Shown: in pieces, positions 25,163-31,546 of the stretch
Layout of the letters: every line of letters starts with the position of its first letter
How positions within the stretch are numbered: position 1 is the first letter of the stretch
Assembly (NCBI RefSeq): GCF_000455345.1
Contig: NZ_HG315690.1
Location: 372,001 to 436,000 of the forward strand
DNA from: Halopiger goleimassiliensis
Lineage (GTDB): Archaea > Halobacteriota > Halobacteria > Halobacteriales > Natrialbaceae
DNA: 64,000 nt
Reading direction: 5' to 3'
Made by a program: the position numbers and the translations under genes
Notes under the pieces: generated by a model
What the model saw: the letters and a program-made list of their open reading frames with translations, nothing else
What the model was told of the DNA's origin: nothing
Databases searched by the model: none

Positions 25163-25897
25163 CTACGACGCGCCAGTCAGCCCGGCCTCACCGAGCGCGC
25201 TCGCCCGTCGCTCGCGGTCGAACAGGTTCACGCCGTCCGAATCGGTCCTGATCGTCCCGATAGCGACGTCGTCCGGCCCGATATCGGCCTCGAGTCCGTC
25301 GTCGAGCGCCCGCAGGGCCAGGCTCGTCGCCGCGCTCGTCTCCAGATCCTGCGTGTACTCCGCCTCGAGCGAGTCGCGGATCGCCTCGCCGTTGCCGCCG
25401 ACGGCGACCGCGCGCCACTCTCGCGGCGTCCCGGATGGATCGACCTCGTACAGTCGCGGATCGCCGCCGTCGATGCCGCCGAACAGTAGCGAGGTGCCGA
25501 ACGGCCGCATGCCCCCGGACTGGGTCGATTCCTGCACGTAGTCCCCGACGGCCGTCGCGATCCGTTCGACGCCGGCGCGTTCGCCGTACCGAAGGCGCTC
25601 ACGCTGGCCCGCGAGGCGCGCCTCCTCCACGAGGTGGCGTCCGTCGGCGACGTGGCCGGCCGTCGCCGCCCCGACGCGGTCGTCGATGGCGTGGAGTTTC
25701 TCGACAGTCTCGGAGACCTGCAGCGGGGACTGTACCGGACGGTGTGCCGCCAACACGACGCCGTCGGTCGCTCGCACGCCGACGACCGGACCACCCCGTC
25801 GGACGGCTTCGCGGGCGTACTCGACCTGGTAGAGCCGCCCGTCCGGCGAGAAGATCGTGCTGGTCCGGTCGTAGGCCTCCCGCTGGGGACCCTGCAT
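25163..25897 (-). CDS. psmA: 20S proteasome alpha subunit (paralogue)
   Basis: This 244-residue alpha subunit forms the outer rings and gate of the 20S core. The N-terminal YDRTSTIFSPDGRLYQVEYA is diagnostic, and QREAYDR precedes it. The pocket lysine for ATPase C-terminal tails is kept in VEKLHAIDD (the residue equivalent to Lys66 of Thermoplasma). The central block TAGHVADGRHLVEEARLAGQ is also typical. Compared with the usual alpha subunit it has AAHRPVQSPL where VDKRIRSPL is common, a sign of divergence. The ATG at 25897 overlaps the psmB stop by one base, so the two are co-translated. A pair like this next to its own beta suggests an accessory, not the main, proteasome. Confidence 0.9.
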   Translation of the reverse strand: MQGPQREAYDRTSTIFSPDGRLYQVEYAREAVRRGGPVVGVRATDGVVLAAHRPVQSPLQVSETVEKLHAIDDRVGAATAGHVADGRHLVEEARLAGQRERLRYGERAGVERIATAVGDYVQESTQSGGMRPFGTSLLFGGIDGGDPRLYEVDPSGTPREWRAVAVGGNGEAIRDSLEAEYTQDLETSAATSLALRALDDGLEADIGPDDVAIGTIRTDSDGVNLFDRERRASALGEAGLTGAS

Positions 25898-26619
25898 CAG
25901 GACGCACCTCCGGTCTCGAAGCGCACGCCGTCGCGATCGATCACCGCGAGCGTAACGCCGTCGCCGCTCGCGGTGTCGCGTTCGCTGGCGGCCTCGACCG
26001 CGGCAGTCGCCGTCGTCACCGCCTCTTCCGTCGGAGCGTCGGGTTCGAACCGGTCCTCGAGCACGCCGTAGGCCAGTTGCATCCCGCTGCCGCCGGCGGC
26101 GTACCGGTCGGCCATCACGGAGCCGCTCCCGTCGAGTTGGAAGACGTGCGCTCCGGCATCGTCGACGCCTCCGAGCAGCGGTGCCACGGGAGCGCCTCGC
26201 ACCAGTCCGCCGGCGACCTCCGCCAGCGCGCTCACGCGCATCGGGCGGCCGCGTCGGGTCTCGTACAACCTGGCTTCGACGCTGAGCGACCGGAGCAAGT
26301 CCTGGGCGGGGCCGACGGAGCCGGCGATAGCCATCGCCGCCGTCGGGTGGACGGACTCGATCTTTTGGGCGTCCTTGTTGGCGACGAGTCGGCCGCCGAG
26401 ACTCATCCGCTGGTCCGCGGCCATCACGACGCTCTCGTCGGCTTCCATCGCGACGATGGTCGTCCCCGTCTCGAGCGTGGGGGTGTCCTCGGACGGGTTC
26501 GGCGCAGCGTGTTCGGCCGGGGGCCGCTCCTCGAAACTGCCGAGTCTCGCTTCCGTGCGGTGGTGTCGCTGTCGTCGGTCGTCGGTGGCGCGACCACCCG
26601 CGTCGAATCGATGTCGCAT
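25897..26619 (-). CDS. psmB: 20S proteasome beta subunit (paralogue)
   Basis: This is the catalytic subunit, 240 residues, with a propeptide of 52 residues. Processing at Gly52-Thr53 would free the nucleophile Thr53 in TLETGTTIVAMEA. The active-site Asp lies in VVMAADQRMS and the Lys in NKDAQKIESV region, with one residue more than usual in the loop between them. AIAGSVGPAQDLLRSL is the next conserved block. The propeptide is unusually Arg/His-rich (MRHRFDAGGRATDDRRQRHH). The ATG at 26619 is preferred over the GTG at 26625 because ATATATTC (reverse) lies 25-31 nt upstream. It is the first gene of the psmB-psmA operon. Confidence 0.9.
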   Translation of the reverse strand: MRHRFDAGGRATDDRRQRHHRTEARLGSFEERPPAEHAAPNPSEDTPTLETGTTIVAMEADESVVMAADQRMSLGGRLVANKDAQKIESVHPTAAMAIAGSVGPAQDLLRSLSVEARLYETRRGRPMRVSALAEVAGGLVRGAPVAPLLGGVDDAGAHVFQLDGSGSVMADRYAAGGSGMQLAYGVLEDRFEPDAPTEEAVTTATAAVEAASERDTASGDGVTLAVIDRDGVRFETGGAS

Positions 26620-26643
26620 ACCCACCTCTCGGTCCGGCGCGCG

Positions 26644-26784: not shown

Positions 26785-29496
26785 TCAGGCGTAAAACAGC
26801 GGTGGCCGCCGGTCGCCGCCGTACTCCTCGTCGGGCAGGTACGCCTCGAGGGCGCTCCGGTCCTCGTTGCCGAGCAGTTGATCGAGGACGTCGACGGCCG
26901 CGCCGCGATGGAGGGGCCGGTTGTCGTTGCCACACTGGTCGTCCATCACGCAGGCGGGACAGCCGCCCGGATCACCGCAGTCGCAGTCAGCGATCAGTCG
27001 TCGCGCCCGGCGAGCAACGGCCTCGAAGTGCTCGTAGATGGCCCGCGCGAACCCGAGGCCGCCCTCGACGCCGTCGTAGATGAACCAGCCGCTGGCCGGC
27101 GGCCGCTCCAGATTGGTCGCGATCTCGCGAACGGTGGCCTCGGCCGCAGCGATGTTTCGCGGCGCGTCGCCGTCGTCGGTCGCCACGCCGAACCCCTCGT
27201 TCGATTCGGACGGCTCCTGATCGAGGTGCGAGTCGATCGTCAGCGTCGCCAACCCGCCCAGGTCGCGCTTGTCGACCATCAACTCGAGCGGCGCGACGCC
27301 GATCGTCGCGTGCTCGGCGGCGTGCAACCCGCCAGCGTAGCCGAGGTGAGCCGTCCCCGCGAGGTCGTCCTCGAGTTCGGGGACGGAGACGTCGCGGTAC
27401 TTCTCGATCAGCGCGCGCTCGACGTCCTGGGGAACCTCGAGCCAGCAGAGTTGCGTCTCCATCGAGAGCGGCGGGTTCTCCGTCGGGATCGACTGCTTTC
27501 GCTTCTCCCCACCGTGGATCGCGACCTGATCGTACGTGCCGTGGTAGACGAGGACGCGACCGCGGCCGAAGTGGAGGGTGAAGTCGCCGATCTCACGGGA
27601 GCGCTCCGAGACGGCGTCCAGCACCGTCACGTCGGTCCGCGTCCGGGTGTAGTAGTCGACGTCCGTCGGCCGCAACGTGACGCTCGGCCGTGGCGCGGCG
27701 TGGTCGACGTCGACGACCTCGTACTGTTTCCCCTGGTGGAGGCGGACCGCCCCCTCGTGGAAGTCCCGGAGGACGCGTTCCGTCGCCAGCGGTTCCATCT
27801 CCGGATCGTGCACGTCGTCGACGCCCTCGGCGAGTCGGACCTCGTACTCCTCGCCCGTCGTCGCGTACAGCGAGACGGACTGCTGGGGTCTGGGCGGTCC
27901 CGCGTACGAGACGCCCGTCTCGAGGTGACCCCGTAGCTGCCCGGCCCGCCGCCACATCTCGATCCCGCGCTCGAGGCGCTCGCGCTCGGTGAAGGTCCCC
28001 GCGTCGGTCTCGTCGATCGCGAGTTCGTCGGCCGCACACCGGAGGTGCTGGGCGAAGACGGCGTCGTTGTCGACGTCGACCACCGCGTCCTCGACGTCGT
28101 TCTCGAGCAGGTAGTCGGGGTTGGAGACGACGTACTGGTCGAGGGTTCGGTGTTCGGCGACGAGCACCGAGAGCGCACGACTTCGTCCCCGACCTGCGCG
28201 ACCGATCTGTTGCCAGAACGACTGTCGCTGGCCGGGATACCCCAGCTGGACCGTCGCGTCCATCGCGCCGATGTCGATGCCCAGCTCGAGGGCGTTCGTC
28301 GAGGCGACGCCGTCGAGCAACCCGTTCCGGAGCTGATGTTCGGTGCCGTGGCGTTTCTTCCGGGAGTGGCCGGCGTGATAGGGCTCGATCGCGCTCCCGC
28401 GGTCGGGGTTGGTGTAGTAGCGGGGGTTGTCGCGGCGGTGTTTCGACGCCCGCTTGACCGAGAGTTCGGCGAGCTTCCGGGAGGGCGTAAACAGCAGCGT
28501 CTGGGCGTCGTTGTAGGTCAGATGCGACAGGACACGCGGCGCGTCGACCGTGGCCGGGACGCGCTCGGAAATCGTGTCGTCCGCGTCGTCCGCCGTCCGT
28601 TCGGCACCGGGTTGCTTCGCTTCAGCGTCCGTCTCCGACCACTCGCCGCGCTCGTCGTCTCGCTCCCGGTCCCGCGGCGGCGGGTTCCAGAGCACCAGAT
28701 CCCGCGGCCCGCGCGGCGAGCCGTCCTCGTCGACGACGGTGACCGACTCGTCGATCAGTGCCGCGGAGTGTTCGCCCGGGTTCCCGATCGTCGCGCTCGT
28801 GAGCACGAACTGCGGGTCGGCGTCGTAGTACGCGAGAACGCGTTTCAGTCGCCGGACGATCCAGGCGACGTGCATCCCGTGAACGCCGGTGTAGGTGTGG
28901 GACTCGTCGATCACCACGAGGTCACAGGCCGAGAGAAAGCGCGCCCACCGGTCGTGGTCGTGCAGGTAGGTGTTCACGCCCGCGAAGTTGGTGATGATGA
29001 CGTCGGCCTCCTCGCGGATCCGCCGCCGGTTCTCGCCGCGTTCGGTGTCGCCGTCGTACACCCGGACCGTGATCTCGAGCCCCAGATCGTCGAACAGATC
29101 GTTCAGCGCCCCCTCCTGATCCCGCGAGAGCGCCTTCGTCGGGTACAGCAGGTAAGCGGTCGATTCGACGCCCCGAGCGCGAGCCTCGAGGTAGTTTCTG
29201 GCGATCTGGAGGGCGTAGACCCGGGTCTTCCCCGAGGACGTGCTCGTCGCGACGCAGACGTGCTCCCCGTCGGCGAGCGCCGCGAGCGCCTCTGCCTGAT
29301 GGGTGTAGAGGTCGTGCTCGAGGGGACCCGCGAGTTCGGATTGCAACACGTCTTTGGCGGGAACCGTCTGGGCGTCTCGCCCCGGCAACTCGAGGACGCT
29401 GACGTCCGCCGGATCGTGGTATCTGGGAAAGCTCTCGACCAGCTCCTCGCCGGTGATCGGGACGTCCGTCCGCGTCTCGGATTCGGGTTCGCTCAT
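26785..29496 (-). CDS. Hrq1/MrfA-type superfamily 2 helicase with DUF1998 zinc site
   Basis: This 903-residue ATP-dependent helicase shows motif Q around HDLYTHQAEALAAL, Walker A in ATSTSSGKTRV (Lys90), YPTKALSRDQ (Ia), the DEAH-like box VVIDESHTYTG (Asp197-His200), SAT in FVLTSATIGN, and LLFTPSRKLAEL and QQIGRAGRGR in the second RecA lobe. The C-terminus carries Cys residues at 838-855 (CDCGDPGGCPACVMDDQC), the zinc cluster typical of DUF1998 in Hrq1, YprA and MrfA proteins. These repair crosslinked or alkylated DNA. It follows the exonuclease gene by 16 nt on the same strand, matching the MrfA-MrfB pairing known in Bacillus. Confidence 0.88.
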   Translation of the reverse strand: MSEPESETRTDVPITGEELVESFPRYHDPADVSVLELPGRDAQTVPAKDVLQSELAGPLEHDLYTHQAEALAALADGEHVCVATSTSSGKTRVYALQIARNYLEARARGVESTAYLLYPTKALSRDQEGALNDLFDDLGLEITVRVYDGDTERGENRRRIREEADVIITNFAGVNTYLHDHDRWARFLSACDLVVIDESHTYTGVHGMHVAWIVRRLKRVLAYYDADPQFVLTSATIGNPGEHSAALIDESVTVVDEDGSPRGPRDLVLWNPPPRDRERDDERGEWSETDAEAKQPGAERTADDADDTISERVPATVDAPRVLSHLTYNDAQTLLFTPSRKLAELSVKRASKHRRDNPRYYTNPDRGSAIEPYHAGHSRKKRHGTEHQLRNGLLDGVASTNALELGIDIGAMDATVQLGYPGQRQSFWQQIGRAGRGRSRALSVLVAEHRTLDQYVVSNPDYLLENDVEDAVVDVDNDAVFAQHLRCAADELAIDETDAGTFTERERLERGIEMWRRAGQLRGHLETGVSYAGPPRPQQSVSLYATTGEEYEVRLAEGVDDVHDPEMEPLATERVLRDFHEGAVRLHQGKQYEVVDVDHAAPRPSVTLRPTDVDYYTRTRTDVTVLDAVSERSREIGDFTLHFGRGRVLVYHGTYDQVAIHGGEKRKQSIPTENPPLSMETQLCWLEVPQDVERALIEKYRDVSVPELEDDLAGTAHLGYAGGLHAAEHATIGVAPLELMVDKRDLGGLATLTIDSHLDQEPSESNEGFGVATDDGDAPRNIAAAEATVREIATNLERPPASGWFIYDGVEGGLGFARAIYEHFEAVARRARRLIADCDCGDPGGCPACVMDDQCGNDNRPLHRGAAVDVLDQLLGNEDRSALEAYLPDEEYGGDRRPPLFYA

Positions 29497-29512
29497 GGTT
29501 CGGGAGGTGAGA

Positions 29513-31198
29513 TCAGAAGTCGGTCAATCCGGCCTGTTCGGTGTCCTCGGTGCTCGTGCTCGAGCGACCGGTTCCCTGGCTGTGCGACGCCGATCCGTCG
29601 CTCGTCGTCTCGCCTCGATTCGCCTCCGCGGTCGCCGCCGGGGAGTCGCCCGTCGACTGACTCGCGTCGGTTCGGTCCACATCGTCGACGCTCGAGGCCA
29701 TTGTCTCGGACGCCAGCGGCGCGTCCCGCAGGCGTTCGTAGACGTGCCAGAGGGCACGACAGTCGTCCTCGCAGTAGGCCTCGTGGCGGTCCCACGCGAG
29801 TTCCGCGCCGGTGCGCACGAATCGCTGGTAGGCCGCGGCCGTCGCCGCGCCGTCGAGGCCCGTCTCCGCACCCTCGTAGCCTAGCGCGTCGGCGACGACC
29901 TCGAGTTCGTTCGTCCGGCCGGGGAGCAGGGCGTTCTCGTCTTTGACGGCCCACAAGTAGAGGTCGAACTTGGGGATCGACTCCCACGCCTCGGCGTAGT
30001 AGGGGACGTGTTTCGCGACGAACGAGCCGAGGTGTCGGTAGTCGAACCCCCAGCCGTTCCAGGTGAGCAGCGCGCGGTTCGGGTGCATGCCGAAGAGCCA
30101 GTCGCAAAAGGCCTCGAGCACCGGCGCGGGGTCGCTCGGATCCTCCCGCTCGACGAAGGCCCGATACTCGTCGGTTGCGGGATCGTAGACGCCGATCTGC
30201 CAGAGGATCGTCGGCGAGAGGCCGTCGGTCTCGACGTCGAGACACAGCGGCGGTTCGTGCCAGTCCGCGCCGGGCAGTGATTCGTCGGTCAATCGTCGCG
30301 GCTCGCCCGTCTCGAGGACCCGAGCGTGCTGGTGCATCGTCCGGGCGCGCTCGCGGCCGACGCCCGGGAGGTCCGCGAGCGTCGCGATCGAGGTCTCGAG
30401 GAGTTCTGCGCGAGTGGTCACTCCCCGGTCGGCGAGTCGATCCGCCGTCTTCGGTCCGATTCCGGCCACGGCCTCGAGGCCGAAGTCGGTCACGTCGTGC
30501 GTGTCGACGCGAGTGACGCCGTCCGCGGTCAGCGTCAGACTCGCGATCGATCCCCGCTCGCCGTAGCCCTTCGTCGGGCCGGCCCCGCGGACGCGAACGG
30601 AGACGCAGTCGTCCCCGAGCGGTTCGACGCCGCCGACCGTCTCGTGGTCGACGCAGCGGACGGCACCCGTCCCGGGTTCCAGGTGCCAGAGCGCATCGTA
30701 CCCCGCAGGCTCGCTCCCCGTCAGCAGGGTGGTCACCGTTCCGGTTGGCAGCGCGTCGGCCAGCACCGGCGCTCCCTCGAGGCGCGTCTCGAGGGCCGTC
30801 GGCCGCGTCACCGTCGTCACGTCGTCACAGACGAGCGACACGGTATCGGCCTCGAGCGTCCGCAAGACGGCGTCCGGGTCCGCACGCAAGGCCTCGGTCC
30901 CGGGCGCGAGGGCGATCTCGAGGGGAGCGTCGTCGTCGTTCCCGTCCTCCGGCGCGGTGGCCTCGAGCAGCCGTCGAGACAGCGGGCCGTCGCCACCGGT
31001 CTCGAGTGGCGGATGCACGGCCGGGGCATCGAAGACGCTCCGGGCCCGCGCGAACGCCTGCGGGTCGCGATCGGGGCCGAGCACCCAGACGGCGTCGGGT
31101 TCGACCGTCGCTGCGAGATCCTCGAGCGTGGGGACTGGCCGATCCGCGATCGCCGACGGCGGGAGGGCGAGGACGGTGACGCCGGCTCGAGCGGTCAT
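29513..31198 (-). CDS. YprB/MrfB-type RNase H-fold exonuclease with helix-hairpin-helix domain
   Basis: This 561-residue protein has three parts. Residues about 1-235 are an unrecognised N-terminal domain. About 240-300 is a tandem helix-hairpin-helix DNA-binding region with VAGIGPKTADRLADRG and LADLPGVGRERARTM. About 315-495 is a DEDD-like nuclease with LCLDVETDG (Asp321, Glu323), TWNGWGFDYRHL (Asp386) and AYCEDDCRALW (Asp478, Asp479). The tail (about 500-561) is Ser/Thr/Gln-rich and disordered. The start is ATG 31198, with CATTATC (reverse, about 31222-31228) upstream. It is first in an operon with the helicase. The predicted activity is a 3'-5' DNA exonuclease. Confidence 0.8.
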   Translation of the reverse strand: MTARAGVTVLALPPSAIADRPVPTLEDLAATVEPDAVWVLGPDRDPQAFARARSVFDAPAVHPPLETGGDGPLSRRLLEATAPEDGNDDDAPLEIALAPGTEALRADPDAVLRTLEADTVSLVCDDVTTVTRPTALETRLEGAPVLADALPTGTVTTLLTGSEPAGYDALWHLEPGTGAVRCVDHETVGGVEPLGDDCVSVRVRGAGPTKGYGERGSIASLTLTADGVTRVDTHDVTDFGLEAVAGIGPKTADRLADRGVTTRAELLETSIATLADLPGVGRERARTMHQHARVLETGEPRRLTDESLPGADWHEPPLCLDVETDGLSPTILWQIGVYDPATDEYRAFVEREDPSDPAPVLEAFCDWLFGMHPNRALLTWNGWGFDYRHLGSFVAKHVPYYAEAWESIPKFDLYLWAVKDENALLPGRTNELEVVADALGYEGAETGLDGAATAAAYQRFVRTGAELAWDRHEAYCEDDCRALWHVYERLRDAPLASETMASSVDDVDRTDASQSTGDSPAATAEANRGETTSDGSASHSQGTGRSSTSTEDTEQAGLTDF

Positions 31199-31290: not shown

Positions 31291-31546
31291 CCACGAAAGC
31301 CCCTACCTCGCTCGACCGGTTGCGACTCGTTGCGGTCCTCGGCCTTCGGCCTGCGGTCCTTACATCGTCTCACCGGGTCGAGCGAGGCAGCCCCTTTCAT
31401 TCCCACCCGTATCGGCTGGCCGGTCATGCCATTGCGGGTTGGAATGAAAGGGGCTGCCGGCTCCGGGAAGACGGGCGAAGTAAGCACGGCAGTGAAACGA
31501 GGAGCGCAGCGAGTCCATCGACCGGAGCCGTCAGGGGCTTTCGTGG
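31291..31546. mobile_element. 256-bp element of nested inverted repeats (MITE-like)
   Basis: The ends CCACGAAAGCCCCT (31291-31304) and AGGGGCTTTCGTGG (31533-31546) are perfect inverted repeats. Inside, CCTCGCTCGACC (31306-31317) pairs with GGTCGAGCGAGG (31376-31387). A further pair of 24-nt arms with one mismatch (31386-31409 with 31435-31458) closes a 25-nt loop. No frame inside resembles a protein. It fills most of the 430-bp gap between the divergent exonuclease gene and thyA. No target-site duplication is visible at its ends. It could be a miniature transposable element, a dispersed haloarchaeal palindromic repeat or a structured RNA gene. Confidence 0.55.

Follow-up and report, generated by a model that had tools for sequence, protein, structure and literature searches.

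The window analysed here, a stretch of 64,000 nucleotides from Halopiger goleimassiliensis, contains two neighbouring minus-strand genes that, in our view, likely form a co-translated DNA repair module consisting of an MrfA/YprA-type 3'-5' helicase and a PCNA-tethered DEDDy exonuclease. The arrangement is MrfAB-like, with a nuclease that belongs to a different subfamily. Like the MrfA-MrfB (YprA-YprB) pair involved in mitomycin repair in Bacillus subtilis, it couples a YprA helicase to a DEDD exonuclease of the RNase_H_2 fold, but the haloarchaeal nuclease falls into a separate DEDDy clade, carries a predicted dead phosphoesterase domain, a helix-hairpin-helix (HHH) module and a putative PCNA-interacting (PIP) box, and has no TPR domain. 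The gene pairing, the domain make-up, the intact active sites, the loss of the phosphoesterase ligands and the conservation of the PIP box were all obtained by computation. The coordinates of all features are listed in Table 1.

Table 1. Features of the nuclease-helicase locus; positions refer to the window.
Feature	Coordinates	Strand	Basis or remark
Nuclease gene	29513-31198	-	561 aa from ATG at 31198, start common to relatives
Predicted calcineurin-like metallophosphoesterase fold, metal ligands not conserved, nuclease residues 1-238	30485-31198	-	AF2 and structural matches
Tandem helix-hairpin-helix (HHH_5), nuclease residues 241-293	30320-30478	-	Pfam E 1.4e-12
DEDDy 3'-5' exonuclease domain (RNase_H_2), nuclease residues 314-495	29714-30259	-	Pfam PF13482 E 4.5e-28
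Variable, predicted disordered linker, nuclease residues 505-554	29537-29686	-	pLDDT <50 at 513-554
Predicted C-terminal PIP box QAGLTDF, nuclease residues 555-561	29516-29536	-	motif conservation
MrfA/YprA-type SF2 helicase gene	26785-29496	-	903 aa
RecA1/DEAD domain of helicase	28783-29304	-	Pfam PF00270
RecA2/Helicase_C domain of helicase	28189-28521	-	Pfam PF00271
MZB (DUF1998, "MrfA Zn-binding") domain of helicase	26947-27126	-	Pfam PF09369, 59 bits, cut-off 24

The helicase gene is located 3' of the nuclease gene and separated from it by 16 nt, bearing out the coupled pair with a 16-nt gap described in the initial annotation. Genes recognised by sequence flank the locus: thyA and folA upstream of the nuclease gene on the opposite strand, and, shortly past the 3' end of the helicase gene and on its strand (25163-26625, minus), two genes resembling the alpha and beta subunits of the proteasome. 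The region between the nuclease gene and thyA (31291-31546) harbours several interleaved inverted repeats, one of which has arms of 31 nt (31386-31416 and 31428-31458) with 87% complementarity; the other repeats range from 78 to 100%.

A survey of 145 haloarchaeal genomes identified the nuclease in 55, all of which (55/55) also encode the helicase, whereas a further, 56th genome contained a helicase fragment only (Fisher p ~1e-39, shared ancestry uncorrected). No nuclease occurring alone was encountered among the 55 nuclease-positive genomes, and the pair is thus inseparable in this set. For 57 of 60 nuclease copies the helicase follows on the same strand within 400 nt downstream, and for the remaining three within 1.5 kb. 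The gene order with the exonuclease first, initially taken to be fixed, was found in the same orientation in 80 of 80 further named loci, with the helicase directly downstream, a median of 2 nt away. Such pairing greatly exceeds what chance would give, and the pair is obligate. A mirror-tree correlation of 0.97 between nuclease and helicase was not counted as evidence, because it is expected for co-inherited operon genes.

The pair is absent from about 60% of the haloarchaeal genomes and often plasmid-borne, for example on plasmid pHS3 of Halobacterium salinarum R1 (OE_RS12870/OE_RS12865). There, a small RNase_H_2/PolB-exonuclease-like protein of 214 aa (L246:11654-12298) comes third, after the pair. 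Viral contigs provided two weak relatives among the matches listed. Such a patchy distribution with many plasmid copies is unlike that of core repair, and the DISARM, Dpd, Druantia and ARMADA systems are driven by other YprA-family branches (PMC12458937), as would suit the main rival to our proposal, namely an antiviral or anti-plasmid defence module that destroys incoming DNA, perhaps at foreign replication forks loaded with PCNA. We nevertheless consider a defence function unlikely: the helicase is closer to MrfA (315 bits) than to defence helicases (123 bits for DruE, the best defence-system model; the bits stem from different search tools), the nuclease had no PADLOC match, and the recurrent neighbour families of the pair look housekeeping, none being an evident defence gene as judged by sequence. 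Also, no additional conserved third gene was found beside the pair. In the Natrialbaceae, the chromosomal copies have retained housekeeping neighbours, with thyA (26 loci) foremost among them.

The helicase was initially described as a DUF1998-type Hrq1/MrfA enzyme and can now be assigned to the MrfA/YprA repair type, based on its PF09369 domain and on its best solved relative in a phmmer search, B. subtilis YprA/MrfA (6znp, E 6e-93); the next one, Lhr, reached only 68 bits. Across 32 sequences, Walker A (GKT) and the DESH motif show little or no variation, and five cysteines in and just beyond the MZB domain (C838, C840, C846, C849 and C855) are present in 32/32. By these motifs, we classify the protein as a divergent repair-type MrfA/YprA enzyme in which the motifs and putative zinc cysteines are intact. 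Scores to MrfA amounted to 522 bits for a methanogen MrfB-linked helicase, 433 for a haloarchaeal solo helicase and 315 for the paired haloarchaeal helicase, which by this measure is the most divergent among the archaeal members compared; in the helicase tree, the three kinds form separate clades. In many haloarchaea that lack the pair, a YprA helicase from another clade occurs solo, with no adjoining nuclease (L211-L218). Sorted by content, 52 genomes comprised 3 in which the pair and the solo helicase occur together, 18 with the pair only, 23 with the solo helicase only and 8 with neither. The rare co-presence is as expected under overlapping function and hints at such an overlap, a reading confounded by shared ancestry, as families differ in which of the two they carry.

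For the nuclease, an AlphaFold2 model of the whole protein was confident (pLDDT 88). The exonuclease domain is structurally closest to the proofreading domains of family B polymerases (Z 16.1). Since MrfB is likewise reported to resemble these domains (PMC11194089), the fold alone cannot separate the two proteins. The catalytic residues do so: D321, E323, D386, Y475 and D479 are invariant in 65/65 aligned sequences, acidic residues included, which makes the nuclease a DEDDy enzyme, in contrast to the DEDDh type of MrfB. The His expected four residues before the last Asp in a DEDDh site is lacking in the haloarchaeal nuclease, with Tyr475 found in 65/65, whereas methanogen and Geobacillus MrfB have a His at the fifth catalytic position.

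Plain orthology of the archaeal genes to Bacillus MrfA-MrfB, with HHH as an extra domain, would account for the helicase match to MrfA, for a nuclease of the same Pfam family (RNase_H_2) and for the resemblance of both nucleases to family B proofreading domains. However, such orthology is quite improbable for the pair and, with respect to the nuclease, already contradicted, as methanogens of the same phylum possess true MrfB-MrfA pairs (L199-L206, L209, L210). There, too, the nuclease gene comes first, overlapping with or adjacent to the helicase gene, and the MrfB proteins of about 330-370 residues have HHH followed by the exonuclease domain, also ending soon after the latter. They differ from the haloarchaeal nuclease by their membership in the MrfB clade, their DEDDh site, a YprB-like N-terminal motif, the lack of a dead phosphoesterase domain and, according to the sequences read, a C terminus without PIP box, and their helicases belong to a distinct clade, apart from that of the haloarchaeal paired ones. 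The one methanogen MrfA-adjoining nuclease that was searched matched the MrfB crystal structure (E 4.5e-25), and its H..D site has the catalytic His at the expected position, whereas the haloarchaeal nuclease gave no match to this structure. Ten methanogen nucleases and Geobacillus MrfB grouped as one clade, from which the haloarchaeal clade is set apart by a long branch with support 100/99 (few outgroup sequences). At the C terminus of the haloarchaeal nuclease, no match to a TPR domain was obtained; a disordered tail is predicted there, and its N terminus is different as well.

The separate clade, Tyr in place of His, the missing TPR domain and the lack of a match to the MrfB structure rule out the nuclease as an MrfB orthologue, and its placement in a different subfamily is well supported by the sequence comparisons. 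Of the YprB/MrfB-type exonuclease with tandem HHH motifs in the initial annotation, the 3'-5'-type DEDD exonuclease with HHH stands, but the MrfB assignment does not. The HHH module, which likely binds the DNA backbone, had been regarded as an archaeal addition. Methanogen MrfB has one too, although weaker, so that it is not a haloarchaeal addition. Geobacillus MrfB, unlike methanogen MrfB, shows no HHH by Pfam.

The N-terminal part of the nuclease (about 235 residues) yielded no match in Pfam or NCBIfam, in agreement with its early description as a domain of 235 residues that could not be placed from sequence. Because matches to the exonuclease domain took up the fold searches made with the entire protein, the N-terminal domain was modelled and searched separately, and structure prediction indeed provided a placement. 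Residues 1-238 folded with an AF2 pLDDT of 92.5, and their best 50 structural matches were all calcineurin-like metallophosphoesterases, headed by Rv0805 (Z 10.4, 178 residues aligned, rmsd 3.6) and including purple acid phosphatases and Mre11/SbcD. Foldseek was weak (E 0.017), its top rows representing the same superfamily. Conserved His/Asp/Asn metal ligands were not found in 65 sequences, in which no column exceeds 57% His or 9% Asn, indicating that the metal site has been lost. We thus predict, with high confidence, a dead metallophosphoesterase fold. The B-subunits of replicative polymerases are dead phosphoesterases as well, the likeness to the nuclease domain being one of fold class only. 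Most likely, the dead domain would serve as a protein-binding scaffold, and by analogy it probably docks the helicase: the N-terminal tail of MrfB has been modelled to wrap MrfA (PMC11194089), which makes helicase docking the obvious candidate role.

Two further protein families share parts of this architecture. The TM0106 family (TIGR03491) combines a RecB-like domain with HHH and RNase_H_2; the latter two are shared with the haloarchaeal nuclease (48-51 bits there), which differs by its phosphoesterase-like N-terminal domain and its helicase partner. The nuclease matches TIGR03491 with the HHH and exonuclease part only and stays below the cut-off (51 versus 97.45 bits). This match had pointed to a RecB-like N-terminal domain, an assignment ruled out by the structural neighbours, which are phosphoesterases. 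A Rhodococcus relative of the TM0106 layout has a Tyr in the last motif. The second family is a plasmid-borne haloarchaeal metallophosphoesterase-HHH-RNase_H_2 fusion (L018 group, alignment A5) of the same domain order, but with intact phosphoesterase motifs (PF00149, 37.9 bits) and with neither a helicase neighbour nor a PIP box. Since this family keeps an intact phosphoesterase, descent of the nuclease from an active fusion is plausible, whereas a profile comparison of the N-terminal domain with the L018-type phosphoesterase, for which one of the two profiles had just four near-identical rows, gave no signal. Intact fusions were seen on plasmids at L219:5073-6515, L220:4826-6265, L221:5064-6506 and L222:5241-6683, in each case with no adjoining YprA helicase. 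They are 94-97% identical across haloarchaeal genera and have probably spread recently by horizontal transfer; relics are present in L224 and L225.

At its C terminus, the nuclease carries a motif that was absent from the initial account of this protein. The form QxxLx[DE/S][FW] closes the nuclease in 79 of 80 loci, the exception being a frame-broken gene, and in 65/65 aligned sequences, while the distance from the last active-site motif to the box varies from 31 to 80 residues in relatives. The chance of such a C-terminal motif arising from tail composition is about 0.1% per protein. The motif has the PIP-box form Q-x-x-h-x-x-a at an exposed terminus, though the longest PIP consensus has a second aromatic residue that is missing here. 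QxxLxxFx-type PIP boxes are known from H. volcanii RNase H2, Fen1 and polymerases (PMC7776575), and the same C-terminal form appears in the H. goleimassiliensis genome in putative RNase HII (QTSLEGF), Hel308 (QSSLGDF) and a family-4-like UDG (QTRLDGF). A genome pattern scan for QxxLxxF, however, returned 4 sites versus 7 in the backward control, numbers too small to count as evidence by themselves, and missed the nuclease of the window itself owing to a TTG Leu codon; as the scan was no richer than its control, the case for the PIP box comes from conservation across relatives. From this conservation, the tail very likely ends in a PCNA-binding box. In Haloferax, the NreA-PCNA-UvrABC pathway is an archaeal mitomycin repair system that also depends on a PIP box (PMC7776575), the role of NreA requiring its interaction with PCNA (PMC7776575, PMC4929162), but NreA belongs to a protein family unrelated to the haloarchaeal nuclease.

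The shared form of the RNase HII box, together with the RNase H-like fold name and the annotation as "ribonuclease H-like", might suggest that the pair acts at PCNA in an RNase HII-like manner, on RNA-DNA hybrids (R-loops or primers) rather than on damaged DNA. This appears highly improbable to us, given that DEDDy exonucleases of the same fold, the family B proofreading domains, act on DNA and that MrfB prefers DNA (PMC11194089).

For the repair module that we favour, PCNA binding, complex formation, the repair function and the type of lesion are parts of a model that we infer as follows. Through the PIP box on its flexible tail, the nuclease would be held on PCNA where a fork has stalled or at a repair patch. 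The HHH module would hold on to the backbone of the DNA, and the dead phosphoesterase domain would act as a protein scaffold, probably as a helicase dock in place of the MrfB tail. The helicase, as deduced from MrfA, would then unwind the damaged strand, and the exonuclease, for which fold and catalytic residues were computed, would degrade the displaced strand past the lesion with a presumed 3' to 5' polarity, before a polymerase receives the gap from PCNA. In bacteria, the action of MrfAB in mitomycin repair does not depend on UvrABC (PMC11194089); for the haloarchaeal pair, mitomycin repair remains an analogy.

In the open literature, we found no description of the haloarchaeal nuclease. 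A study of the YprA family describes MrfB-linked and solo repair helicases, and a link to a phosphoesterase, to HHH or to PCNA is not mentioned in its text. Judging from the literature searched, the pair would be an undescribed PCNA-linked helicase-exonuclease repair module, and we tentatively suggest a further YprA-helicase repair machine, with a clamp-tethered nuclease on a dead phosphoesterase scaffold in the place of MrfB. The annotation "ribonuclease H-like domain-containing protein" thereby gains a specific, testable role, and the pHS3 copy in the genetic model Halobacterium salinarum R1 makes the module directly testable. If true, excision would be tied to the replication clamp and not to the helicase alone, and the module would be a case of a repair helicase family accepting another nuclease partner under unchanged operon logic.
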